64,000 nucleotides of DNA from Tateyamaria omphalii (GTDB taxonomy: Bacteria; Pseudomonadota; Alphaproteobacteria; Rhodobacterales; Rhodobacteraceae): NCBI RefSeq assembly GCF_019802125.1, contig NZ_JAHVHT010000001.1, forward strand, positions 930,001-994,000. Direction: 5' to 3'. Of the stretch, positions 6,501-22,453 are shown one piece after another. The notes beneath the pieces were generated by a model, which did no database searches, had not been told where the DNA came from, and was given only the letters and a program-made list of their open reading frames with translations. The position numbers and the translations under genes are program-made. Positions within the stretch are counted from its first letter, which is position 1, and each line of letters opens with the position of its first letter.

Positions 6501-7250
6501 CTATTCGACGCGCATGGGCAGTTGTGTGACCTTGGATGGCTTGGCGGGCTGGTTGAGTTCCGGCAGCAAACGCTCCATCTCGTCCAGAAGCCGTTCCAGA
6601 TGGGCGCGGGCCACGTTTTCCTCCAGATCAAGCCGATTGATCCAGGTCGAAAACTCGCCATGGATGGCCTTGGCCTGTTCGAGCCGCTCGTTGAACTGTG
6701 CAATCTCGAACTGACGCTGCTTGAGGAACGACCGCGCGCGCTCGACCTTTTCAGTAGAGTATGCCTCGGCCAGATCGCGGCTGATATGGGACATCTTGGC
6801 GGCCAGTTCCAACAGCTCCGGCTCCAGCATTCCCAGGTCCGGGTGATCCCGCAGATAGGCAAGCCTGTCCCTAGTGCTCTCGAACGCATCGCCGAGGTTG
6901 AACACCCCGTCTCGATCGCCGTGATGCGCGGCATGATAGGCCCGCGTGATGTCGTCCACACCAACGTTGAATTGCCTGTGTGAATTCTCAAGCTGCATGA
7001 TCCGCGCGTTGGTCGGCAGAAAGAAACACAGCGCGACAGCAAAGACGGTTAGCCCGATCTGTGTCAGCATCCCGGCATGCGCCACATGCACGCCGTCCCA
7101 CATGACGGGCAGATCAATCCAGGGCCACACCCCTGCAATTGCCAACCCCGTTGCCACTACAGAAAACAGCGCCAATCCAGCAAACAGGATCAGAGCCAAC
7201 CGCCGCATCATTTCCGCAAACACGCGCGCGGCAAAAATCAAATGGTTCAC
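6501..7250 (-). CDS. Membrane-anchored coiled-coil protein, function unknown
   Basis: A 249-residue protein with two transmembrane segments near the N terminus (about residues 16-37 and 60-78) and a long charged helical C-terminal domain (about 80-240) rich in Glu, Arg and Leu that should form coiled coil, ending in a short basic/Pro tail. I recognise no family with a defined function. The start is a GTG at 7250 preceded by a GGAAGG-like ribosome site; ATG codons at 7211 and 7208 would also keep both membrane segments. It lies 39 bp upstream of radA on the same strand. Confidence 0.65.
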   Translation of the reverse strand: MNHLIFAARVFAEMMRRLALILFAGLALFSVVATGLAIAGVWPWIDLPVMWDGVHVAHAGMLTQIGLTVFAVALCFFLPTNARIMQLENSHRQFNVGVDDITRAYHAAHHGDRDGVFNLGDAFESTRDRLAYLRDHPDLGMLEPELLELAAKMSHISRDLAEAYSTEKVERARSFLKQRQFEIAQFNERLEQAKAIHGEFSTWINRLDLEENVARAHLERLLDEMERLLPELNQPAKPSKVTQLPMRVE

Positions 7251-7413
7251 CAGCCTTCCCCCCAGAAGACAAATTATTCCATCACCATAGATTTAAGCGT
7301 CGGAAAATACAGCCAAAAAGTTGTGGGTCGCGCGTGCAATCCGACCCTACTGTTTCCAGATGCGCAGAAATACCGCGAGATGGCCTGTATTATCCGCAAG
7401 ACGTGCGGCGCGA

Positions 7414-8163
7414 TCAACGCACTGTTTCAATGGGCCCCTCAGCCCGCCCATTGATGAACTGATCCAGGTAGGGATCGTGCGCTGCATCAATGTCGGCCAC
7501 CGGCCCGGTCCACCGGATTTTCCCGCCATGCAGCATCGCCACATTGTCCGCGATGGTGCGGACCGAGGTCATGTCGTGCGTGATGGTCATGGTGGTAGCC
7601 CCCATCTCCGTCACGATCTCGCGGATCAGATCGTTGATCACCCCCGCCATGATCGGGTCGAGGCCGGTGGTCGGTTCGTCGAAAAAGATGATCTCGGGCT
7701 CTGCCGCAATAGCACGGGCGAGGCCCACGCGCTTTTGCATCCCGCCTGACAATTCGGCAGGCAACCTGTCAGCGACATCTGCTGTTAGCCCAACGCGGCG
7801 CAGCTTTTCGATGGCGATCTCGCGCGCCTCGTCCTTGGGTCGTTTCAGGCTGCCCCGCATCAGGCGAAAGGCGACGTTCTGCCAGACGGGCAGCGAGTCG
7901 AACAGGGCCGCGGCCTGAAACAGCATACCGAAGCGGGCGAGAAAGGCGTCGCGATCCCTTGTCTGCGTTACGTCCTGCCCGTCCACGGTGATCGTACCGC
8001 GCTCTGGCGTCACAAGACCCAGAACCGTCTTGATGCAGATGGACTTGCCTGTCCCCGACCCGCCGATGATGACCATCGACGTGCCACGTTCGACATGCAG
8101 ATCGACACCGCGCAGCACGTGGTTGTCGCCAAAGGATTTGTGGACATCAGACAGCGTGATCAT
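7414..8163 (-). CDS. ABC transporter ATP-binding protein, MlaF-like
   Basis: The 249-residue ATPase subunit of an MCE-type lipid ABC transporter. Walker A is GGSGTGKS (about residues 34-41), the signature motif LSGGMQKRVGLARA and Walker B IIFFDEPTTGLDP follow, with the GLDPIMAGVI spacing of the Mla/Ttg2 family. Its start overlaps the stop of the MlaE-like permease by 4 bases, so the two are translationally coupled. MlaF/MlaE move phospholipids between inner and outer membranes together with an MlaD substrate-binding protein, but no mlaD is present here. Confidence 0.88.
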   Translation of the reverse strand: MITLSDVHKSFGDNHVLRGVDLHVERGTSMVIIGGSGTGKSICIKTVLGLVTPERGTITVDGQDVTQTRDRDAFLARFGMLFQAAALFDSLPVWQNVAFRLMRGSLKRPKDEAREIAIEKLRRVGLTADVADRLPAELSGGMQKRVGLARAIAAEPEIIFFDEPTTGLDPIMAGVINDLIREIVTEMGATTMTITHDMTSVRTIADNVAMLHGGKIRWTGPVADIDAAHDPYLDQFINGRAEGPIETVR

Positions 8164-8933
8164 ACCGAAAAGAACACCCCCGTCAGAACGAAGTTCGCTG
8201 CAAGGATCAGGACGGCTGCGGCCTCCACAGACCCTTTCGTGGCCCGGCCCACGCCTTGCGCACCCCGGCCCGAGTTCATGCCGAAATAGCAGCCCATCAG
8301 CGCGGCCAAACAGCCGAACACAGCCCCTTTGACCAGCGAGGACACGACATCGCGAAGCTCAAGAAAATCAACCGTGTTCTGGATATAGGCCGCTGCATTG
8401 AAGCCCAGCGTGCCAGTCGCAACGGCGTAGCCACCAAAGATGCCGATCACATCGCCCACACCCACCAACAGCGGCACGGCGAGCGTTGCGGCCAGCACAC
8501 GCGGCACGGTCAGGTATTTCATTGGATGTGTCGACAGGGTGACCAGCGCATCAATCTGCTCCGTCACTTTCATCGTCGCAATCTCTGCCGCGATGGACGA
8601 TGTCACCCGCGCGGCAATCATCAGACCGACCAGCACAGGACCCAACTCACGCACCATACCGATGGCGACGATCTGCGGCACAACCGCCTCGGCATTGAAA
8701 CGCGCGCCGCCAGCATAGATCTGCAATGCCAACGCGCCGCCGGTGAAGATCGCCGTCAGGCCGACCACAGGCAGCGACAGCCATCCGATGTTCAAGAGGG
8801 CAAGCGCAAATTCGCGCGGATAGAACGGCGGCCGCACCAGATGCGTGAGTGTCGCGCCCAGGAACATCGCCACGCGCCCGATGGCCGCAAGCAGGCCGAG
8901 CGTGACAGCGCCGATCCCGGCCAGAAGCCTCAT
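8160..8933 (-). CDS. ABC transporter permease, MlaE-like
   Basis: A 257-residue MlaE/YrbE family permease with about five hydrophobic segments. The family motif [23 protein letters not shown], with conserved Glu and the small-residue run, is visible near residues 94-118, as is [10 protein letters not shown] just after it. Its stop overlaps the ATPase start by 4 bases and its start overlaps the alr stop by 4 bases, so alr, this permease and the ATPase form one coupled operon. Expected role: retrograde or anterograde lipid transport across the envelope. Confidence 0.9.
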
Positions 8934-9964
8934 TGGACAAGCGCCCTGTGATAGCGCAGGCCGAGCGACGTCAGGATTTCATATCCTATGGTGCCTGCCG
9001 CGTCCGCGATAGTGTCGACAGACTGGTGCTGACCCATCAGCTGCAGATCAACCGGATCATGGCCCGCATCGGTCACATCCGCCGTGATCAGGTCCATCGA
9101 CACGCGACCAACAACGGGGCAAGGCACATCCCCGGCATAAAGCGTGGCATTCGGTCCCATGGCGCGGATCAGACCATCGGCATAGCCACCGGACACGGTG
9201 GCGATGCGTGCATCGCGCGGCGCAATCCATGTGTTGCCATAGCCCACAGTCTCACCTTGCGCGACATCGCGCACCTGTATGACGGGCAGGTCGAGGGTCA
9301 CAACCGGCGTCGCATCAACAAAGGGCAGCCCGCCGTAAAGCCCGATCCCGGGCCGGGTCATGTCGAAATGATATTCACGGCCAAGTATTGTGCCACCGGT
9401 CGCAGCCAGCGAGCGCGGCACATCCAGCCCGTCCGTCATGGCGCGAAACTCCGCCAACTGGTGGGCATTCATCGGATGGCTTGGCTCATCCGCGCAGGCC
9501 AGGTGCGACATGATCAGGGTAGGGCCCTGCGCCACTGCAATGTCGCGCACTGCGGACCATTCGGCAGGCTCCATGCCCAGCCGGTTCATGCCGCTGTCCA
9601 GTTGGATGCCAAAGGGATGGCCCGGCAGCGCCTCCACGTGGCGCAGCATCTGATCGACGGAGTTCAGGAGCGGGGTGAGCGCTGCCTCGCGAATGGCCGT
9701 GGTGTCGCCCACCATGTGCCCGGAAAAGACATAGATGGCAGGGCCTTGCCCAATAGCACCGCGCAGCGTGTTGCCTTCATCCGCTGTCGCGACAAAGAAG
9801 CTGCGCACACCGGCTCGCAAGAGCGCACGGCCGACGACAGGGGCGCCAAGCCCGTAGCCGTTGGCCTTGACCACAGCGCCGGTCTCGCCTTCACTCATTG
9901 CGTCAAGGGCCTGCCAGTTGCGCACAAGTGCGCCAAGGTCGATAGAGAGGGTCGCGGACGTCAT
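8930..9964 (-). CDS. alr: Alanine racemase
   Basis: A PLP enzyme that makes D-alanine for peptidoglycan. The 344-residue protein has the PLP lysine in [10 protein letters not shown] (about residue 34), a TIM-barrel N-terminal domain, and the C-terminal beta domain with the catalytic tyrosine in VGYGNTW. Length is slightly below the 360-residue norm but no motif is missing. Coupled by a 4-base overlap to the MlaE-like permease. A biosynthetic Alr is the likelier reading, as no amino-acid transporter or catabolic dadA sits beside it. Confidence 0.94.
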
Positions 9965-12718: not shown

Positions 12719-13393
12719 CTATGTCCGGGCAGCTTGCCACCCGCGCGGGTCGTTCAGAAAGGCTTCCACTCCGCTCAAAGTTGCATCGTCGACGGACCCC
12801 GACGCCTTGGCCTCGGCCAGGACATCCCACCACGTGCACAGGTGGTGCAGCGTCACACCGTGATCGCCCAGCGTCTTTTCGGTGTTGGGGAAGATGTCGT
12901 AGTAGAAAATCACGGCGGTGTCGGCGCAGGTGGCCCCTGTCTCGCGGATGGCATCGACAAAGCTCAGCTTTGACCCACCGTCGGTGGTCAGATCCTCGAC
13001 CAGCAGTACCCTCTGGCCCTCGGTCATCACGCCCTCGATCCGGGCGTTCTTCCCGTATCCTTTGGGCTTTTTTCGCACATATGTCATTGGCAGACCCATG
13101 CGCTCCGCCACCAGCGCACCAAAGGGCATGCCCGCCGTCTCGCCACCAGCGATGTTGTCGAATGCTTCGAAGCCGGCATTGCGCATGACCGTTACGGTCA
13201 GGAAATCCATCAGCGTGGTGCGGATGCGCGGGAACGAAATCAGCTTGCGACAATCGATATAGGTGGGCGAGGGCAGGCCCGAAGACAGGGTGAAGGGCTC
13301 GGCCGCATTGAAATGCACCGCTTCGATCTCCAGCAACATGCGGGCGGTCAGGCGAGCCATCTCTTCTTGTGTGGGGTAGCTTGTCGGGATCAT
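12719..13393 (-). CDS. pyrE: Orotate phosphoribosyltransferase
   Basis: Converts orotate and PRPP to orotidine monophosphate in pyrimidine synthesis. The 224-residue protein shows the orotate-binding stretch [17 protein letters not shown] (about residues 35-51) and the PRPP loop [14 protein letters not shown]. It follows pyrC on the same strand with a 75-bp gap that holds one copy of the intergenic palindromic repeat, so the pair probably shares a transcript. ATG start at 13393. Confidence 0.96.
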
Positions 13394-13468: not shown

Positions 13469-14500
13469 TTACTGGACGGACCACGTCAGGTCGAAACCGG
13501 GGTCAAAGACAGTGACGGCGCCATCCTCGGTGTCGATGTGACCGGGCAGGTCGGGTGCAGTCTTGGTCAGGGTGATGGTGTCCGCGTTCACCGGCAGGCC
13601 GTAAAAGGCGGGACCGTTTTTCGATGTAAAGGCTTCGAGCCGGTCGAGCGCGCCGTCCTCCTCGAACACCTGTGCCAGGATCGGCAGGGTGTTGGGGGCC
13701 GTGAAGCAACCCGCACAGCCGCAGGGCAACAGCTTGTTTGCATCCGTATGTGGCGCGCTGTCGGTGCCAAGGAAGAACCGCGCCTCGCCGCTGGTGGCCG
13801 CTGCACGCAGGGCCAGCCGGTGTTCCTCGCGTTTGGCCACAGGCAGGCAATAGTAGTGCGGCTTGATCCCGCCCGCGAGGATATGATTGCGGTTGATCAC
13901 CAGATGATGGGTCGTGATCGTCGCGCCAAGGCTGTCATCCTGCGCGCGGGCGTAATCAACGGCGTTGGATGTAGTGATATGCTCCATCACCACGCGCAGA
14001 CCCGGCGTCGCCTTGCGGATCGGGTCGAGTGTGCGATCAATGAACACCGCTTCCCGGTCAAAGATGTCGACATCATGGTCTGTCACCTCGCCATGGACGC
14101 AGAGTGGCAGGCCGATCTCTGCCATCCTGTCCAGCACCAGTCGGACGTTATCGAAATTCGTCACACCCGAGGCAGAATTGGTTGTTGCCCCGGCGGGGTA
14201 CAGTTTGACCGCTTTGACCAGACCGCTGGCATGGGCTGCGGCCACGTCGTCTGCATCGGTGTCCTCGGTCAGATAGAGGGTCATCAAGGGCTCAAATGCC
14301 GAGCCTTCGGGCAGGGCGGCGAGGATTCGGTCACGATAAGCACCGGCCTGAGCGCCCGTGACAATCGGTGGTACGAGGTTCGGCATGATGATGGCGCGTC
14401 CAAAGTCGCGGGCGGTCCAAGGCAGAACGGCCCGCATCATGGCGCCGTCGCGCAGATGCAGATGCCAGTCGTCGGGGCGAGCAAGGGTCAGAGTGGTCAT
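13469..14500 (-). CDS. pyrC: Dihydroorotase (type II, homodimeric class)
   Basis: Zinc amidohydrolase that closes carbamoyl-aspartate to dihydroorotate. At 343 residues and starting with [10 protein letters not shown], whose HxH pair binds zinc, it matches the short E. coli PyrC class rather than the longer PyrC/AllB class. The carboxylated-lysine region is [16 protein letters not shown], and later metal ligands lie in [13 protein letters not shown] and GTDSAPH. The gene starts 33 bp after the stop of the protein at 14534-15487, so it may belong to the 3' end of the glycosyltransferase/sulfotransferase operon. Confidence 0.96.
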
Positions 14501-14533: not shown

Positions 14534-15487
14534 CTAGCCCTCGTCGGGTTGTTCTGCGGCGATGCGCAGTGCCTCTATCTCGGCCAAGCGGCGCTGGAAG
14601 CGAGGAGCCTTTTTCATGCGTGAGACGACGTTGCGCGCCATCATGTAGCTCAGGTCCGTCCGGTCGTTGCGATCAAGAGCAGCCAACACCCGTCGCAAAT
14701 AGCCCGGATAGGTGCGCCGCGCACGGTAGACCTTGGCAAACTGCAGGTCATTGAGCGTGCCCTCCGCGGCCATTTCCAGCAGATCAGGCAGCACATTCAT
14801 TTGCATCAGGTCGCTCTGGATCGTGTCGCCCATGTTGCGCAAGCGATATTGCGTCACGCCGGCGCGTGTGAACAGGGCCGCGTGCATCGCATCCAGCGTT
14901 TCGACCGGATCGTAGAGGACGTAGGCCTGCGCACAGGCGTCCAGCATGTCGGGCGCGTAACCGTAGCGCGAGGTGAAATCCGTGCGCCGCATTTCAACAA
15001 AACGGTCGTCCCATTCGGTCACGCGCGGATCGAGTGTAGCTTGCGGTTGGATCACCAGCACCTGCGCCCCGGGGGCCGCGACAGAGTAGGCGGCAGCGGC
15101 GTAACCGCAGGGACCAGCGCCATAAAAGAGGACCGTTTCATACTCATCGAAAAAGCCGTCATCGATCATCTGGTCGAACAGGCCAATCACATGGCGGTCG
15201 CGGAACCAGGTGTCGCCATCTGACGCAATACAAAGATGCGACCAGTCGTTGTCCCGCACCATCGACCAGCCCAGAGGTTCGGCGCGCTCGGTCAGCGCGC
15301 GCATGCCTTGTACCGATTCGAAGGTGACGACCAACGTATCGCCGCGCCGGATATGCGCCGCGAAGTGTTTGCGCCCGAGCGGTTGAAAAAACCCATGCTC
15401 ATCAGCGGTTTGGGCAAGCCGTGTCAGCCACTCAGCCTTTGGCAGATCGGCGAGGTCCGGCTCGAACGGGGGCACTTGGTCCTGCAT
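14534..15487 (-). CDS. Conserved roseobacter protein, function unknown (I think often labelled PAPS reductase)
   Basis: A 317-residue cytosolic protein. The start at 15487 has a GAGGA ribosome site; a longer frame overlapping the glycosyltransferase gene is not credible. The centre has an alpha/beta nucleophile-elbow-like stretch, LFYGAGPCGYAAAAYS (about residues 137-152), followed by VLVIQPQATLDPR. From memory, homologues in this family of bacteria are often named phosphoadenosine phosphosulfate reductase, but I see neither the SGGKDS-type PP-loop nor the C-terminal ECGLH-type cysteine of that enzyme. Its position behind the sulfotransferase/glycosyltransferase genes suggests a role with that operon. 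An alpha/beta-hydrolase-like fold is my best guess. Confidence 0.55.
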   Translation of the reverse strand: MQDQVPPFEPDLADLPKAEWLTRLAQTADEHGFFQPLGRKHFAAHIRRGDTLVVTFESVQGMRALTERAEPLGWSMVRDNDWSHLCIASDGDTWFRDRHVIGLFDQMIDDGFFDEYETVLFYGAGPCGYAAAAYSVAAPGAQVLVIQPQATLDPRVTEWDDRFVEMRRTDFTSRYGYAPDMLDACAQAYVLYDPVETLDAMHAALFTRAGVTQYRLRNMGDTIQSDLMQMNVLPDLLEMAAEGTLNDLQFAKVYRARRTYPGYLRRVLAALDRNDRTDLSYMMARNVVSRMKKAPRFQRRLAEIEALRIAAEQPDEG

Positions 15488-15575
15488 CACTCTATCCTCA
15501 CGTCCCGCGATTTGGATTGCGGGTTGCGGTCGGAATACCGCTGCAATGGGGCAGAAATGCGGAAAATTTGAGTGA

Positions 15576-16622
15576 CTATTGCCCCGATTGGCGTGCCAGA
15601 TTGGCATACCGGATCATGAACTGTGCTGCCTTCGGTGGCACGGGACGCGTGGGCGGGGTCATCAGGAGACGGCCAAACAGGGCGCGAAAGGGTTCTTGCT
15701 GCATCAGCGCATCGAAGCGTGCCTTGCGCCACGCGACCGCGTCGGCATGCAGTTTGGAAAGGGTGCCATCTGCTTTGAGCGCAGAGAGGTTGGCGTCGCG
15801 CGCATTCCTGTACCGTTCAATGCTGGTATCTTCATCGGTGCTGAAATTGCGTTCCACCCAGTAGTCGACGTCCAAGATGTCATCGGAGTGCACCGCTCGG
15901 CCACGGTCCGCCTTCAGAACATAGCTCTCCATGGTCCCGAGCGGGTAGTGGTTGAGCTGCGCCAGACCATAGTTCCGGCGCCCATAGTTGGAAAAGATGC
16001 GACGTGTTTTGAACTGATCGTCCAATGCACGGCCATGGCCGTCGAACCAGCGGGCTTGCTCCAATTTGGCCGCGTCGACGTCGCGAGGGCGGTGGACGCC
16101 CGGTTTGCGATAAGTGCCATCGTTCTTGTACAGCGTCTTGAACATTGATGCGCGCCAGGGCCAGTGGAGCACTTCGGGTGCAGCCTTGACGAATGTATCT
16201 GTCAGCGGCTGGTCCAGATACCGAACCTGGCCATTGTTGCCGAACAGACGCCAGGTCAGCGTGATGGCAGTGGCGTCGGGCAGGGCAGCATGCAGGTCGG
16301 TTAAGGTCCCATCGCCCACATGGATGTTCACGAATTCATCCACGTCCAGTGGCAGGATCCAGTCAGCTGACGTGACCTGTTCCATTTTCGCTGAGGCCTT
16401 GAGCGCCGTAAACTGGATGCCGCCCTTGTCATAGGGGCCGTCATTGCGAGCATGCGTCAGCCAACCCAACTCGGCCAGCCTGTCCAGCATCGTATCCGTG
16501 CCGTCATCGCAATCATTTGAGAAAACAAGAAAATCGTCAAAACCGACAGCCCGGTGATGGGCGAGCCATTCCAAAAGGAACGCCGCCTCGTTCCGGACGG
16601 TCAAAAGGGCAAGATGGGTCAC
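15576..16622 (-). CDS. GT2-type glycosyltransferase (Glyco_tranf_2_4)
   Basis: A 348-residue GT-A glycosyltransferase. The GTG start at 16622 overlaps the stop of the FkbM gene in a GTGA arrangement, so translation is coupled; upstream ATGs in the frame lie inside that gene. Motifs: TVRNEAAFLLEWLAHHRA (residues 8-25), the CDDGTD turn at 38-43, and DVDEF at 93-97 as the divalent-metal DxD. The C-terminal half contains LNHYPLGTMESYVLK. It is paralogous to the genes at 17322 and 20320. Sugar donor and acceptor unknown; probably a surface glycan. Confidence 0.83.
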   Translation of the reverse strand: MTHLALLTVRNEAAFLLEWLAHHRAVGFDDFLVFSNDCDDGTDTMLDRLAELGWLTHARNDGPYDKGGIQFTALKASAKMEQVTSADWILPLDVDEFVNIHVGDGTLTDLHAALPDATAITLTWRLFGNNGQVRYLDQPLTDTFVKAAPEVLHWPWRASMFKTLYKNDGTYRKPGVHRPRDVDAAKLEQARWFDGHGRALDDQFKTRRIFSNYGRRNYGLAQLNHYPLGTMESYVLKADRGRAVHSDDILDVDYWVERNFSTDEDTSIERYRNARDANLSALKADGTLSKLHADAVAWRKARFDALMQQEPFRALFGRLLMTPPTRPVPPKAAQFMIRYANLARQSGQ

Positions 16623-17320
16623 TTCAGCGGCCAGGCCCTGCGGAACGTGACAATCTTCTGCGTTGACAGTTTCGGATAATAGGCCAGCCCAGCACCCATC
16701 AATGCCCCAAAAACCGCGTTCACGCCTTCGGGCCCGATCCACTGTGGATGCAGCTCAACCACAGCGGCGCGCAGGCTGCTCAGGTCCATCTCGGGCAACA
16801 GCTCCGCCTCGCCCCCTTCAATGTCGCAGACCAGAACGGTGGGCTTGATTGCTTTGGTCTGCTGACCCGCATTGACCACATCCACCGTTTCGGTCCGCAG
16901 CACAGCATCGCCATGCGCCTCGTCGGTTGACGACGCGAGGATGTTGCCCCGCACATGAAAATCCTTGGTGCCCTTGCGCTTGCCCAACATTGCGTGATGC
17001 ACGGTCGCGTTTTCTACACCATTGGCGTCATGCACACGGGCGATGTATTCGGCCAGTGCGGCGTTTGCCTCGTACACATGGACATGCGCCGCTTCGGACC
17101 TCTTGGCGACAAGGGTCGAAATATAGCCAAGCCCGCCGCCCAGTTCGAGCACCACGTCGTTCGGTTGTACGATGCGCAGCACCGCGTCGCCTTCCTTGGT
17201 CTCGTAAATCCCGCGCCGCAAGCTGCCTGCAATGCGCGGCTTCAGCACCTCCATGTCGCGCGGAAACAGCAGGCCCCGCGGCGTTTTGATCATGGGTGTC
17301 TCCACCGGCGATCCGTCCAT
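16619..17320 (-). CDS. FkbM family methyltransferase
   Basis: A 233-residue SAM-dependent methyltransferase of the FkbM family. Motif I is VLELGGGLGYISTLVA; the following acidic VYEANAAL and the later VLVCDIEGGEAELL with its DIEG motif are family marks. ATG at 17320 begins one base after the stop of the 791-residue gene, and its 3' end overlaps the next glycosyltransferase by 4 bases. Members O-methylate polyketides or sugars; with glycosyltransferases on both sides a glycan target is likely. Confidence 0.85.
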   Translation of the reverse strand: MDGSPVETPMIKTPRGLLFPRDMEVLKPRIAGSLRRGIYETKEGDAVLRIVQPNDVVLELGGGLGYISTLVAKRSEAAHVHVYEANAALAEYIARVHDANGVENATVHHAMLGKRKGTKDFHVRGNILASSTDEAHGDAVLRTETVDVVNAGQQTKAIKPTVLVCDIEGGEAELLPEMDLSSLRAAVVELHPQWIGPEGVNAVFGALMGAGLAYYPKLSTQKIVTFRRAWPLK

Positions 17321-17321
17321 C

Positions 17322-19697
17322 TCAACTCTCCATGTCGAGAGCGAGGGCATAGGCCACCCGCTCGGTCTCGGTCAGTTTGACCTTGAGGGCCTGATCGAAC
17401 AGGTCTTGGAACTCCGGATTGGCGTGGAGCTCATCCGCCTTGGCCCGGTGCCATGCCAGACCTTTCTCATGCCACTTGCGCAGCTCTTTGTCCGCCATCA
17501 GGGCGTCGTATTCCGTGCGCATGCGCGGCAGATTGCGCTTGATTGTGATGTCGCGGAAATCGGACCAGTCCATACGGATCCAGTAGTTGATGCCAATGGA
17601 TCGATCCACGTGCAGCGCACGCCCACGCTGCCGCTTGATCAGAAACGATTCCGCAGACCGCAGGGCATAGTGATTCAGTTGAAGGAGATCATAGCCAATT
17701 GACTTTTTCGAACTTCTCCAGCCGTTCTCGGCCACTTCTTTAGTCATGTCCTTGCCGGATCCATTCACCCAGCGCACCTTCGACTTGAATTTCGGATCCA
17801 GCTTGTTCGGGCGGTGGCAACTGATCTTTTCATAGGCCCCGATATTCTTGAACATTGTCTTGAAGCCCCAGACGGTGTGGGGCTTGGGGCAGTATTTGGG
17901 CGCACAGTGATCGAATTGGTCGATGACAAAATCGTCCTTCAACTCGGTCACCCCGTTGTGGCCGAACAGCCGCCATGTCATTGCGACATTGGTTGCGTCG
18001 GGTACGGCGTCAAAGAAATCCTGCAACGTGCCGTTGCCGGTGCGCACATTCATGAACTCATCCACGTCAATGTGAATGATCCAGTCCGCATTCTTGATCA
18101 AAGGTTCCTTCAACGACTGGTTCAGGGCGTATTGCTGGGGCGAGTTTCCTTTCCAGTTGTCGTTGTTTCGATGTTGGATCACGCCCATCTCCTGGAGCCG
18201 ATCAAGAATCTCGCTTGTGCCGTCTTCGCACCCGTTGGTGTAGATCAGGAAATTGTCGACACCCATGGCACGGTGATAGGCAACCCATTCTACGATGTAA
18301 GGCGCCTCGTTCTTCATGCAGCCGACGATGACATTGCCGGTTGATCCCTTGGGAAGCTTGCGATTTCCGATTGGGGTGTAGGCTGCGGCCAGGTCTTCCT
18401 CGTTCACCGCGCCCAGTTTGTTGTGCGGCGCGAACGAGGATGTGCGCAGTTTCTCGAAATTCTGCACAGCCAGGGGCGGCATCAGCTTGCGGGCCGTGTC
18501 GGTCAGCCCGTCATCGGCTGATGTGACTGCGGCAGAAGCTGAGGCAGGGGGCGCAGTTCCATTCAGCCGTGCCAGATCGGCTGCCTTGGTCTTCCGCTCT
18601 TCCTGCGTTGCCTTGTCGATGCGCCACATGAAGCCCAACAGGTATTGCGAGGCGCGAAAACCCCGTGTCGGGTCGGCTTCCTCCCATGCTTTCTTCGCCC
18701 GTGGCGCTTTGAACAGCGTGGCCGGAAGATCATGCCGCTTGGCGATCTCCCGATTCTGGTCCGTGAATGTCTTCGAGACTGCCGCGAGCGATGCAGGATC
18801 GATCGGGTCGCCATCCACCTTGATTTCGGTGACGAAAGACCGCCAGAGCTGGCGCGGCAAGATACGTTTCTCGTTTGCAAGGACCTTTAGGATCAACTCG
18901 TTCAACTGACGTCCACGCGCCAGCCATGCTGCCGAAGGCTCCCTGAATGCGTCGACCTTCGTCGCCTTGCCCATGGTCGGCTTAATTCTGAATGCCGCCC
19001 GGATTTCGTCTGTGACCGTTTCTGCGGCAAATCCTTCGGCATCGTACGCGCGGAAGGTCAGCGCGCCATCCCCGAACACAGCATTCCAATGCCGTTCAAG
19101 GGCAGTGTAGTCCAACCAGCAAGGCGGCGCCTGATTCTCAATAAATACGCCCGCCTGCGGGTTGATCCGTGGGGCTGCGGCCAATGCGTCCGCCCACCAG
19201 GTTTTGCTTCCGGCTATTGCAAGTTCCTGCGCTAGCGAGCTACCGCGCCCTTCCATGATCTGCTCGCTGTAGTGGCGGGTCAGAAGCTTCGCAGGCTCGT
19301 CAATATGCGCCACAACACGGATATCGCTGGACAGTGGCGCAAGAAGAGCTTTCAGACGTTCCAATTCCGACTTGGACACCAGGCTCACGCCCAGTTGAGA
19401 AGCAGACAGGATCAAATGATCGGGTGAAAACTGCGCGACCTCTTTGGCGAGGTCGGACGCCACAGTGTCGTGCAAAACCTGCTGTTTGTCGCCTGTGATA
19501 TACCCTCGATTGTAGCGCAACGGGTCGATATGTGCAGGATCCGTCACCGCCATGTAGAGCCGGGTATGGTTCTTGTTGCCCAAGGCACGCGAGTACAGCA
19601 CGCCTTTGCTGGTCAACTGATCGCGTTTGGCTGCCATCACATTTTGCAGACGGTCCGCGCCCACCTGTTCCAGACCGATATGCAGGTGAATTTGCAT
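17322..19697 (-). CDS. Fusion: degenerate sulfotransferase-like domain plus GT2 glycosyltransferase
   Basis: A 791-residue two-domain protein. The ATG at 19697 overlaps the sulfotransferase stop by one base (TGATG). Residues 1 to about 375 start with HLHIGLEQVGADRLQ, which has the layout of the HIGxPKTGTTxLQ start of bacterial sulfotransferase-like proteins but lacks the Lys and Thr residues that bind PAPS. Residues 375-455 are an Ala/Ser linker. Residues 456-791 are a GT-A domain paralogous to the neighbours: GCMKNEAPYIVEWVAYHRAMG (459-479), CEDGT (490-494), DVDEF (544-548) and LNHYALRSAESFLIK. The first domain may now bind a substrate or act as a scaffold. Confidence 0.8.
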   Translation of the reverse strand: MQIHLHIGLEQVGADRLQNVMAAKRDQLTSKGVLYSRALGNKNHTRLYMAVTDPAHIDPLRYNRGYITGDKQQVLHDTVASDLAKEVAQFSPDHLILSASQLGVSLVSKSELERLKALLAPLSSDIRVVAHIDEPAKLLTRHYSEQIMEGRGSSLAQELAIAGSKTWWADALAAAPRINPQAGVFIENQAPPCWLDYTALERHWNAVFGDGALTFRAYDAEGFAAETVTDEIRAAFRIKPTMGKATKVDAFREPSAAWLARGRQLNELILKVLANEKRILPRQLWRSFVTEIKVDGDPIDPASLAAVSKTFTDQNREIAKRHDLPATLFKAPRAKKAWEEADPTRGFRASQYLLGFMWRIDKATQEERKTKAADLARLNGTAPPASASAAVTSADDGLTDTARKLMPPLAVQNFEKLRTSSFAPHNKLGAVNEEDLAAAYTPIGNRKLPKGSTGNVIVGCMKNEAPYIVEWVAYHRAMGVDNFLIYTNGCEDGTSEILDRLQEMGVIQHRNNDNWKGNSPQQYALNQSLKEPLIKNADWIIHIDVDEFMNVRTGNGTLQDFFDAVPDATNVAMTWRLFGHNGVTELKDDFVIDQFDHCAPKYCPKPHTVWGFKTMFKNIGAYEKISCHRPNKLDPKFKSKVRWVNGSGKDMTKEVAENGWRSSKKSIGYDLLQLNHYALRSAESFLIKRQRGRALHVDRSIGINYWIRMDWSDFRDITIKRNLPRMRTEYDALMADKELRKWHEKGLAWHRAKADELHANPEFQDLFDQALKVKLTETERVAYALALDMES

Positions 19698-20323
19698 CAC
19701 GCGACCTCGTTCAACTTGTTCACATTGGTCTTGCCCCACCAATGGATCGGGGTCTCAATGAAGCCTCCAATCAGATCCTTGGCATCCGGGTCGGCGACAT
19801 CATATTCCAGAAAATCCTCGTCATCTCGGAAGATGGCGCGCAAATGGGCATAGTGCGCCTCGATCCATTGCATCCGCTCTACGCTGGTCTCACCAAACCC
19901 CTCGGGCAGGCCGGGGATGTTGCCTGCTGGCAGGCGTGCGGTGCCCAGATCGGACCACGCCAACATGCTTTGAGATATGTGAAACGGGTCCCGGTTCGAA
20001 GCCAGAAACCGTACCCCCGGATTGTGTTTGCGGATCGCCATGATCAACCCGAAATCCATCTGCGGCCACAGGGACCGGCCCTCCCGAAGTACGCTCATTT
20101 CCGAAATGGCATCGAAACCGTCAAAATAAAAACCTGGATCACCTGTCTCGAAGTATCCGCGGTAGAGCAGATCAGCAACAAACGCCTCGTGCAGTTCCGT
20201 ATTCTCGGTCTGGCGTGGACGAATACGGTGGTCGGCCACATGCAGGCCTGCCCGCCGCAAGGCGCGCGCCAGCGTCGTGGTGCCCGTCTTGGGCAGTCCA
20301 AGGTTCACGACCTTCAGCGTCAT
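19697..20323 (-). CDS. Sulfotransferase family protein
   Basis: A 208-residue PAPS-dependent sulfotransferase. The 5'-phosphosulfate loop is LGLPKTGTTTL with Lys12 and Thr13/15/16, and the 3'-phosphate site is ASNRDPFHISQS with Arg111 and Ser117/119. The WW-containing C-terminal stretch (IHWWGKTNVN) fits the roseobacter sulfotransferase group. It overlaps the upstream glycosyltransferase by 4 bases and the downstream fusion by 1, so it is the centre of a coupled operon. Expected to sulfate a sugar or lipid made by its neighbours. Confidence 0.85.
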   Translation of the reverse strand: MTLKVVNLGLPKTGTTTLARALRRAGLHVADHRIRPRQTENTELHEAFVADLLYRGYFETGDPGFYFDGFDAISEMSVLREGRSLWPQMDFGLIMAIRKHNPGVRFLASNRDPFHISQSMLAWSDLGTARLPAGNIPGLPEGFGETSVERMQWIEAHYAHLRAIFRDDEDFLEYDVADPDAKDLIGGFIETPIHWWGKTNVNKLNEVA

Positions 20324-21348
20324 TCAGCAGGCTCCATCAGCCCCAGCTCGATCAGCATCGCCTCTTCCTGCGGTGGCAGGGTTGACGCAGCACGCAACTG
20401 CGTCTGCATCGCCTGATATTCCGGCTTGGCCAGTAACTCATCCCGCTTGGCGATATGCAGGCGCACGCATTCTTCGTGCAGCGCCTTGATTTCCTTGTCT
20501 TTCTTCAACTCCGTCAGCGCTTTCTTCAGATCCGGCAGATACCGCTGAATGCTCTTGTCCTCCCAAGCAGGATCGTTCCGCTCGCGCCAATAGGTATCAT
20601 CAAAAGCGCGATTTTCGCGGTTCACATCGCCCCGATCATTCTTGACCAGATAACTGTCGAGCGAGCGCAGGGCATAGTGATTGAGCGTTGCCATCTCCCG
20701 CGCTCCAGCTGCCGGAAAGCGCCTGATCCGGCGCGGGTTCGCGGCCACAAGAAACTTGTGCGGCACCTTGCGGCCCGACCCGTCTGTCCAGTCAGGCCGC
20801 GCCTTGCCCTTCTGAAACGGCCTATGCGCGCCATAATACTGCAGCGGAAAATCATGGCGGACGAGGGACTTCACCTCAATCGCTGCCTCCCCACACCATA
20901 GGTCCGGATTGTGTGACCGGTGAAACTGCTCGATCACTGGCTTGTCGACATACGCATCCACGCCATCACTGGCAAAGAACTGAAAAGACACGGAAATCGC
21001 CTGTGGATCATCGCACGCTGCGATCAATGCCGGGATCGTGTGATCGCCTACATGGATGTTCAGAAACTCATCGACATCGGCGATCCAGACCCAATCGGCC
21101 TCGGTCACGATGTCCTGACGGCGCGCATCCTTCAGGGCCTCCATCTGATAATTCCGGCCCTCGGCCGGGTTCGGCAGGTGCTGACACAGACCCCGATCCG
21201 CCAACGCATCCAGCAACGCATCGGTCCCGTCCGTGCAGTCATTTGAATAGAACAGGTGATCGGTCACCCCGATCAAACGGTTGAAGGCAACCCACTCCAA
21301 CAGGAACGGTCCCTCGTTTTTCACGCAAGTCACCGCAGTTACGCGCAT
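20320..21348 (-). CDS. GT2-type glycosyltransferase (Glyco_tranf_2_4), first gene of the operon
   Basis: A 342-residue GT-A enzyme starting at the ATG 21348 (MRVTAVTCVKNEG); an in-frame ATG at 21405 lies further upstream, but the domain starts here. Motifs parallel its two paralogues: CVKNEGPFLLEWVAFNR (8-24), CTDGTD (38-43), DVDEF (91-95), LNHYALRSLDSYLVK. It is the first gene of the sulfotransferase/glycosyltransferase operon and overlaps the next gene by 4 bases. The 196 bp upstream separate it from a divergent MoxR gene and must contain the promoter. Confidence 0.83.
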   Translation of the reverse strand: MRVTAVTCVKNEGPFLLEWVAFNRLIGVTDHLFYSNDCTDGTDALLDALADRGLCQHLPNPAEGRNYQMEALKDARRQDIVTEADWVWIADVDEFLNIHVGDHTIPALIAACDDPQAISVSFQFFASDGVDAYVDKPVIEQFHRSHNPDLWCGEAAIEVKSLVRHDFPLQYYGAHRPFQKGKARPDWTDGSGRKVPHKFLVAANPRRIRRFPAAGAREMATLNHYALRSLDSYLVKNDRGDVNRENRAFDDTYWRERNDPAWEDKSIQRYLPDLKKALTELKKDKEIKALHEECVRLHIAKRDELLAKPEYQAMQTQLRAASTLPPQEEAMLIELGLMEPAE

Positions 21349-21544
21349 GTCACGCCCGCCTTGTCTGAAGGGTCCATCACCCGCCGCCTCTGTCCTCGGG
21401 TCCACGTGCCATATGCCGCAAACCTCTTTTTCATTGCGTTAACATCATGCCATTTCAAGCGAATCGCGTCAACGCGCACGACTTTAGCAGCCCTTGACGA
21501 CGGCCCCAGACGATGCAGGTTGGACCCAAGGGAAGGACCACGCC

Positions 21545-22453
21545 ATGCACACACCCACCTCCATCGATGCCGTCCAGTCCATGCTGGCGGAGCAAGGGTA
21601 TGTCTGCGACCGCAGCCTCGGCACGGTGGTGTTTCTCAGCCTGTCGCTGGGCCGGCCGCTCTTCCTGGAAGGGGAGGCCGGCGTCGGCAAAACCGAAATC
21701 GCCAAGGCACTCGCCGCTTCCCTCGGCCGCCGCCTGATCCGCCTCCAATGCTATGAGGGGCTCGACGCCTCCTCGGCGGTCTACGAATGGAACTTCCCGG
21801 CACAGATGGTGGCGATCCGTACGGCCGAAGCCGCAGGCGGCGCCGACCGCAAGGCGCTGCAAACAGAGCTTTTCTCGGACGACTACCTGATCGAACGACC
21901 GCTCCTCGACGCCATGCGCCCTGACGAAAACGGCGCTCCGGTCCTGCTGATCGACGAGTTGGACCGCACCGACGAACCGTTCGAAGCGTTCCTGCTCGAA
22001 GCCCTCTCAGACTTCCAGGTCACAATCCCCGAGCTTGGCACGATCAAGGCCCCTGAACCGCCCATCGTTATCCTCACCTCCAACCGCACCCGCGAGGTGC
22101 ACGACGCGCTCAAACGCCGTTGCCTCTATCACTGGGTCGACTACCCGAATTTCGACCGCGAGATGGAAATCCTGAGCGCCCGCGCGCCCGAAGCGGCCGC
22201 AGAGCTCAGCCGCGAGGTGGTGGCCTTTGTCCAGCGCCTGCGAACAGAGGACCTGTTCAAGAAACCCGGCGTCGCCGAAACCATCGACTGGGCCAAATGC
22301 CTGCTCGCCCTCGATGTGCTCACCCTCAGTCCCGAAGTTATCGCGGATACGCTCGGCGCAATCCTCAAATACCAGGACGACATCCAAAAACTGCAAGGGT
22401 CCGAGGCCAAACGCCTGCTGGACGAGGCCAAGGCATCCTTGGAGCCAGCATGA
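21545..22453 (+). CDS. MoxR family AAA ATPase
   Basis: A 302-residue AAA+ ATPase of the MoxR/CoxD group. Walker A is GEAGVGKT (43-50), Walker B VLLIDELDR (about 132-140), with sensor 1 in VILTSNRTREV. The ATG at 21545 follows an AAGGA ribosome site. It pairs with the VWA protein 60 bp downstream. Such MoxR-VWA pairs load metal or activate enzymes; in carboxydotrophs the CoxD/CoxE pair matures the CO dehydrogenase copper-molybdenum site, but no coxMSL genes are present here. Confidence 0.87.
   Translation: MHTPTSIDAVQSMLAEQGYVCDRSLGTVVFLSLSLGRPLFLEGEAGVGKTEIAKALAASLGRRLIRLQCYEGLDASSAVYEWNFPAQMVAIRTAEAAGGADRKALQTELFSDDYLIERPLLDAMRPDENGAPVLLIDELDRTDEPFEAFLLEALSDFQVTIPELGTIKAPEPPIVILTSNRTREVHDALKRRCLYHWVDYPNFDREMEILSARAPEAAAELSREVVAFVQRLRTEDLFKKPGVAETIDWAKCLLALDVLTLSPEVIADTLGAILKYQDDIQKLQGSEAKRLLDEAKASLEPA

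Follow-up and report, generated by a model that had tools for sequence, protein, structure and literature searches.

What is made by the compact set of six genes that precedes pyrC and pyrE in Tateyamaria omphalii, and do all of its components act as enzymes? The set lies on the minus strand of a window of 64,000 nucleotides (the whole stretch analysed here) in contig 1 of a 4.49-Mb genome. Its order is GT_A, ST, B, FkbM, GT_C, G6, followed by pyrC and pyrE. A first-pass annotation described five tightly chained genes, a sixth 88 bp further on and pyrC-pyrE thereafter, which the sequence bore out. GT_A and ST overlap by four bases (ATGA) and ST and B by one (TGATG); the junction of B and FkbM depends on the FkbM start, the ATG at 17320 leaving one base between them and that at 17350 giving an overlap of 29. 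A four-base overlap (GTGA) joins FkbM to GT_C, GT_C starts with GTG at 16622 and ends at 15576, and gaps of 88 and 33 bases separate GT_C from G6 and G6 from pyrC, respectively. That annotation overlooked that B is a two-domain protein of 791 residues, in which the glycosyltransferase (GT) is confined to approximately residues 456-791. The answer favoured here, at somewhat better than even confidence, is that the operon would make a short cytoplasmic glycan, sulfated or methylated where the corresponding genes are kept, with two pseudoenzymes (the N-terminal domain of B and G6) in a binding or scaffolding role.

Conservation was followed in two samples. A profile of the B N-terminal domain was compared with 199 family genomes, each representing a different genus. 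Matches at E 1e-3 were found in 102 genomes, 55 of them strong (E 6e-60 or better; own genome included); the remaining hits fell on other proteins and were shorter or less strong. The operon order was identical in the 54 other genomes, from 54 genera, and never differed; the association of the genes therefore exceeds chance. In these 54 loci, B was present in all, GT_A in 53 (the contig ends first in the 54th), GT_C in 52, G6 in 48, pyrC in 43, ST in 44 out of 53, and FkbM in 31 of the 52 with GT_C. Loci devoid of ST displayed GT_A abutting B, and those devoid of FkbM displayed B and GT_C matches 2-83 bases apart. In a class-wide draw, only two out of 241 genomes matched the B N-terminal domain at E 1e-25, both from this family (Rhodobacteraceae).

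As the 54 loci were selected by the B N-terminal domain, they give no estimate of the frequency with which the other genes stand by themselves. This was gauged, for near relatives only, with the best 80 of 586 pyrC relatives, each taken with flanks of at most 10 kb, of which 64 had at least 8 kb upstream of pyrC. The closest among these 80 were Tateyamaria records, with up to 90 % identity. GT_A, ST, both parts of B and GT_C occurred in order in 16 of the 64 loci, 12 of these with FkbM. One strain in which the set is complete is Tateyamaria omphalii KCTC 12333 (L015). The 16 included Tateyamaria, Arenibacterium, Tropicibacter, Sedimentitalea, Roseivivax, Pseudooceanicola and Pseudoprimorskyibacter, as well as metagenome-assembled genomes (MAGs) named Phaeobacter, Sulfitobacter and Pelagimonas. 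B, GT_C and G6 were all missing from 21 of the 64 loci, and G6 was present in 40. In one close relative, Tateyamaria sp. Alg231-49 (locus L011), GT_A, ST and B were missing and GT_C and G6 were kept before pyrC. Four genomes were common to both samples, so that counts over 71 rows refer to 67 distinct genomes.

A tree of 66 rows was built from GT_A together with the GT part of B; on it, ST required at least seven changes (8.6 with shuffled labels) and FkbM at least 17 (20.7). Both genes are thus scattered over the tree. Locus L131, whose GT_A row is a cross-hit and whose contig ends inside the operon, was left out. Median identity to the window (%) was highest for the GT part of B (80.0), followed by pyrC (77.6), GT_A (75.5; one cross-hit row included), GT_C (65.5; two included, L139 and L140), G6 (56.2), ST (51.9), FkbM (48.7) and the B N-terminal domain (47.0). 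Gene order was expected to be conserved in relatives, and it was constant; the set itself proved divisible, since ST and FkbM come and go and GT_C and G6 are also met apart from the other genes.

The N-terminal domain of B was placed in the sulfotransferase fold. Enzymes of this fold that use 3'-phosphoadenosine 5'-phosphosulfate (PAPS) hold the 5'-phosphosulfate with a loop lysine and the 3'-phosphate with an arginine and a serine. Neither the Lys nor the Arg was found in any row of the B domain (0/71 each), whereas relatives keep both (6/6), which makes the domain a relative of PAPS sulfotransferases and not an active member. New positions were conserved in it, for example Arg in 63 and in 54 of the 71 rows. 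A PDB sequence search with the B profile returned no confident match. B was split in two frames in one genome (L133). Part of B was matched by 169 plasmid records, none of them covering 80 % of the query in a single match. Plasmid pP66_a of Phaeobacter inhibens (L150:7867-10140) encodes a 757-residue GT2_4 protein whose GT half is ~50 % identical to that of B; it aligns with B in this half alone, its N-terminal part of just under 390 residues is different, and proteins of this type were matched in 57 Phaeobacter plasmid records.

G6 displayed no Pfam or NCBIfam family near a cut-off. Six G6-like domains from plasmids aligned with it (100 % profile match over 276 columns, 36 % identical) and displayed invariant Ser, Asp and His residues (S115, D184, H212), with a G-x-S-M-x setting, a motif of alpha/beta-hydrolases. 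In 96 copies of G6, the Ser column held Gly in 90, Ser in four and other residues in two; the His was found in five, the Asp in 95 and a second His in all 96. The copy in the window has neither the Ser nor the His of the Ser-Asp-His triad. All four Ser-bearing copies also had the His, two on the other strand (L056, L058) and two in L086. When both columns were excluded, a single branch with support 100 still split the 92 copies without the pair from the ten with it (four copies and six plasmid relatives). From these residues G6 looks like a pseudo-hydrolase, with the alpha/beta-hydrolase fold as a candidate.

In L086, a Litoreibacter MAG, the two Ser/His-bearing copies stand in a row before pyrC (6570-9330), one of them behind a B-like GT; the copy at ~8600 lies just upstream of pyrC, and the other (~6570), which is on the same strand, lies another ~2.5 kb upstream. 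This arrangement is possibly an ancestral active form. Among the plasmid domains, the fusion partners were GT2_4 (two proteins in L151, and L152) and Sulfotransfer_3 (L153), and the domain of L155 follows three GT2_4 genes. The latter cluster, from plasmid p3 of Paracoccus sp. SCSIO 75233 (L155:3029-8527), resembles a distant version of the operon; its first GT2_4 gene encodes 765 residues with an unrelated N-terminal part. On plasmid p2 of Thioclava sp. GXIMD4216 (L154:1-6918), a stand-alone Ser-Asp-His relative adjoins a formylglycine-generating enzyme, near a sulfatase-like gene; its recorded name, phosphoadenosine phosphosulfate reductase, looks wrong.

PF13704 exceeded its cut-off (27.5 bits) in GT_A, B and GT_C (E 1.3e-18, 1.5e-24 and 1.8e-24, respectively), as did the GT92 profile. 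The metal-binding DxD motif was displayed as DxDE by all aligned relatives (71/71 rows for GT_A, of which L131 is the cross-hit; 71/71 for B; 69/69 for GT_C), and the three are predicted GT2_4 glycosyltransferases of DxD type. The motif layout initially ascribed to all three (CxKNE/CxDGT/DVDEF/LNHY) held for the last three motifs: GT_A carries CVKNE/CTDGT/DVDEF/LNHY and B carries CMKNE/CEDGT/DVDEF/LNHY, but GT_C carries TVRNE/CDDGT/DVDEF/LNHY, and the first motif is therefore not common to them. Their proposed origin by duplication was supported by pairwise alignments of 318-339 residues with 33-39 % identity (E 3e-57 to 3e-80). Five of the other GT2_4 genes in this genome were compared as well; they aligned with the operon GTs over at most 125 residues and stood on long branches in a tree of 80 rows. 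In this tree each operon GT formed a separate cross-genus clade with support 100/100 (17 GT_A, 17 B and 26 GT_C rows), and judging by these clades the duplications are old. Two further GT2_4 genes, 35 % mutually identical and far from the three of the operon, were found ~17 kb before the window (G000:C1:912195-913394). A PDB sequence search with the GT_A profile gave alpha-amylase as its two best rows (E 0.023), which was taken as chance.

ST matched Sulfotransfer_4 (PF17784) above the cut-off of 22.8 bits over residues 4-77 only. It is intact: its PAPS-binding residues were conserved in 61 out of 61 rows (P-loop Lys, Gly, Thr and Thr; Arg) or in 60 (Ser). A PDB sequence search with the ST profile gave no confident match. 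The FkbM assignment stood through TIGR01444 (cut-off 37.7 bits), the gene being below the cut-off of the Pfam FkbM model PF05050 (17.9 against 22.7 bits) and barely above that of PF05175, MTS (23.2 against 23). Adenosine 5'-phosphosulfate (APS) kinase was detected in 188 of the 199 family genomes, including this one, and PAPS supply for ST is plausible on that account. Being near universal, this kinase was rejected as a correlate of the operon.

From these parts we infer a product, carrier, location and order of steps. The operon would assemble one short glycan in the cytoplasm, with GT_A, B and GT_C (GT-A fold, common origin) adding sugars sequentially to a carrier made elsewhere. In lineages that keep these genes, ST would add sulfate from PAPS and FkbM would add methyl. 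The B N-terminal domain and G6 lost the residues of chemistry and kept the rest; most likely they would either hold on to the glycan as it grows, possibly in sulfated form, or keep the enzymes in one assembly. A tentative extension, to which we give well under even chances, is a split machine of active GTs, ST and FkbM with two dedicated pseudoenzymes: the pseudo-sulfotransferase would recognise an acceptor or product that bears sulfate and thereby gate or measure chain growth, the pseudo-hydrolase would keep the acceptor in place or serve as a scaffold for the complex, and the decorations of a backbone that is constant from genus to genus would be switched by gene gain and loss. Of the initial interpretation, duplication, gene order and the intact sulfotransferase were retained; it was corrected in that the set is divisible and two of its components resemble enzymes without appearing to be catalytic.

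Several observations weigh against the short-glycan reading. B was absent from 144 of the 199 family genomes. Of the 64 pyrC loci, 16 had G6 but no GT and 11 had GT_C but no B, which would imply that G6 and GT_C serve something wider. Nucleotide-sugar, flippase, polymerase and export genes were not encountered among the six operon genes, nor in pyrC-pyrE, by Pfam/NCBIfam typing. At profile level, the B N-terminal domain did not match the ST of its own operon (0.6 %); its relatives matched ST weakly (13.5 %) and Pfam sulfotransferases only below cut-off (3/6, E 0.04-0.07). Only one of the six G6 relatives matched PF00756 (Esterase; 2.3e-4) and a PDB sequence search with the G6 profile gave no match, so that the hydrolase link is drawn from motifs and one Esterase match.

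Another possibility, which we regard as doubtful, is that the operon belongs to an ordinary polymerised capsule or O-antigen pathway with its remaining genes elsewhere. Clusters for sulfated capsules that combine GT2 with sulfotransferase genes are known (PMC11641403). Wza-type polysaccharide-export genes were found in 55/55 operon-bearing genomes, but they were equally common (38/40) in comparison genomes that we chose from those without a strong B match, and are thus uninformative. Wzy_C/ligase had no match at E 1e-3 in 15 of the 55, the genome of the window included, and a polymer of Wzy/ligase type is therefore not obligatory. The place beside pyrC is kept across genera, unlike that of typical capsule loci, which change fast.

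G6 might merely adjoin pyrC and have nothing to do with the glycosyltransferases. The loci where it stands without any GT would fit this reading; we think it improbable in view of the plasmid relatives of G6, some of which share a protein with GT2_4 or sulfotransferase domains and others of which adjoin GT2_4 genes. Glycosylation of a protein such as flagellin appears more improbable still. Small GT sets devoid of polymerase and export genes are usual in protein glycosylation and flagellin was present in 48 of the 55 genomes, but Flagellin_N had no match at E 1e-3 in the other seven, including a single-contig genome rated 100 % complete (G050), and flagellin was rejected as an obligate target, a rejection that does not extend to other proteins. 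Equally hard to credit is that the B N-terminal domain and G6 are still enzymes using other residues, donors or cofactors: the new Arg positions of the former and the Asp and second His of the latter would allow it, but Lys and Arg were lost together, as were Ser and His, and relatives keep them (6/6).

Scans of the locus returned near-chance numbers of promoters (four against 2.8 expected) and terminators (12 against 8.2, none in the GT_C-G6 or G6-pyrC gap). DNA repeats within the operon were restricted to short GT-to-GT matches and chance-like pairs, and a PHROGs comparison yielded nothing useful. The divergent upstream gene (Table 1) putatively encodes MoxR.

Table 1. Features of the operon and its flanks (positions in the window).
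Feature	Position	Strand	Basis
GT_A, predicted GT2_4 glycosyltransferase, 342 aa	20320..21348	-	PF13704, 67.7 bits
ST, sulfotransferase, 208 aa	19697..20323	-	PF17784, 29.3 bits; PAPS-binding residues
B N-terminal domain (residues 1-455), predicted pseudo-sulfotransferase domain	18333..19697	-	
B C-terminal domain (residues 456-791), predicted GT2_4 glycosyltransferase	17322..18332	-	PF13704, 86.8 bits
FkbM-family methyltransferase, start 17320 or 17350	16619..17320	-	TIGR01444, 44.3 bits
GT_C, predicted GT2_4 glycosyltransferase, GTG start, 348 aa	15576..16622	-	PF13704, 86.5 bits
G6, 317 aa, putative pseudo-hydrolase with alpha/beta-hydrolase-like relatives (candidate fold)	14534..15487	-	Ser-Asp-His relatives
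pyrC, conserved downstream neighbour	13469..14500	-	PF01979; within fetched stretch for 43/54 operon loci
pyrE, conserved downstream neighbour	12719..13393	-	PF00156; synteny
Divergent upstream gene, conserved flank outside the system	21494..22453	+	Synteny only

Across many genera of the abundant marine Roseobacter group, the operon keeps to a single housekeeping location, and its GT core is about as conserved as pyrC. As active relatives of both pseudoenzymes exist for comparison, it offers a clean test of pseudoenzyme roles in glycan assembly. A fixed glycan that may or may not be sulfated and methylated could likewise serve to test whether these decorations change encounters with algae, phages or surfaces.

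All three operon GTs belong to PF13704, with GT92 also above cut-off, and we know of no characterised member of these families with this set of partners. From the sulfotransferase 3rnl and the heparan-sulfate N-/3-O-sulfotransferases, the B N-terminal domain differs by loss of the PAPS-binding Lys and Arg and by fusion to a glycosyltransferase. In streptococcal GtfA-GtfB and Asp1-3, a catalytically inactive enzyme relative aids an active glycosyltransferase; the inactive partner there is itself a glycosyltransferase, whereas here a pseudo-sulfotransferase and a pseudo-hydrolase are concerned. The first-pass annotation did not recognise a described system, and no account of the operon was found in open-licence PMC papers, subscription papers and preprints being outside this scope. 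Closest in content is the sulfated capsular polysaccharide cluster of Vibrio sp. KMM 8419, a marine bacterial glycan locus with GT2-type glycosyltransferases and sulfotransferases, which comprises 80 genes, including nucleotide-sugar, ABC-export and PAPS genes (PMC11641403). The present operon differs in having six genes, none of those kinds, a fixed housekeeping position and two pseudoenzymes. Its parts are of known kinds; what is new is their conserved combination with a GT-fused pseudo-sulfotransferase and a pseudo-hydrolase.

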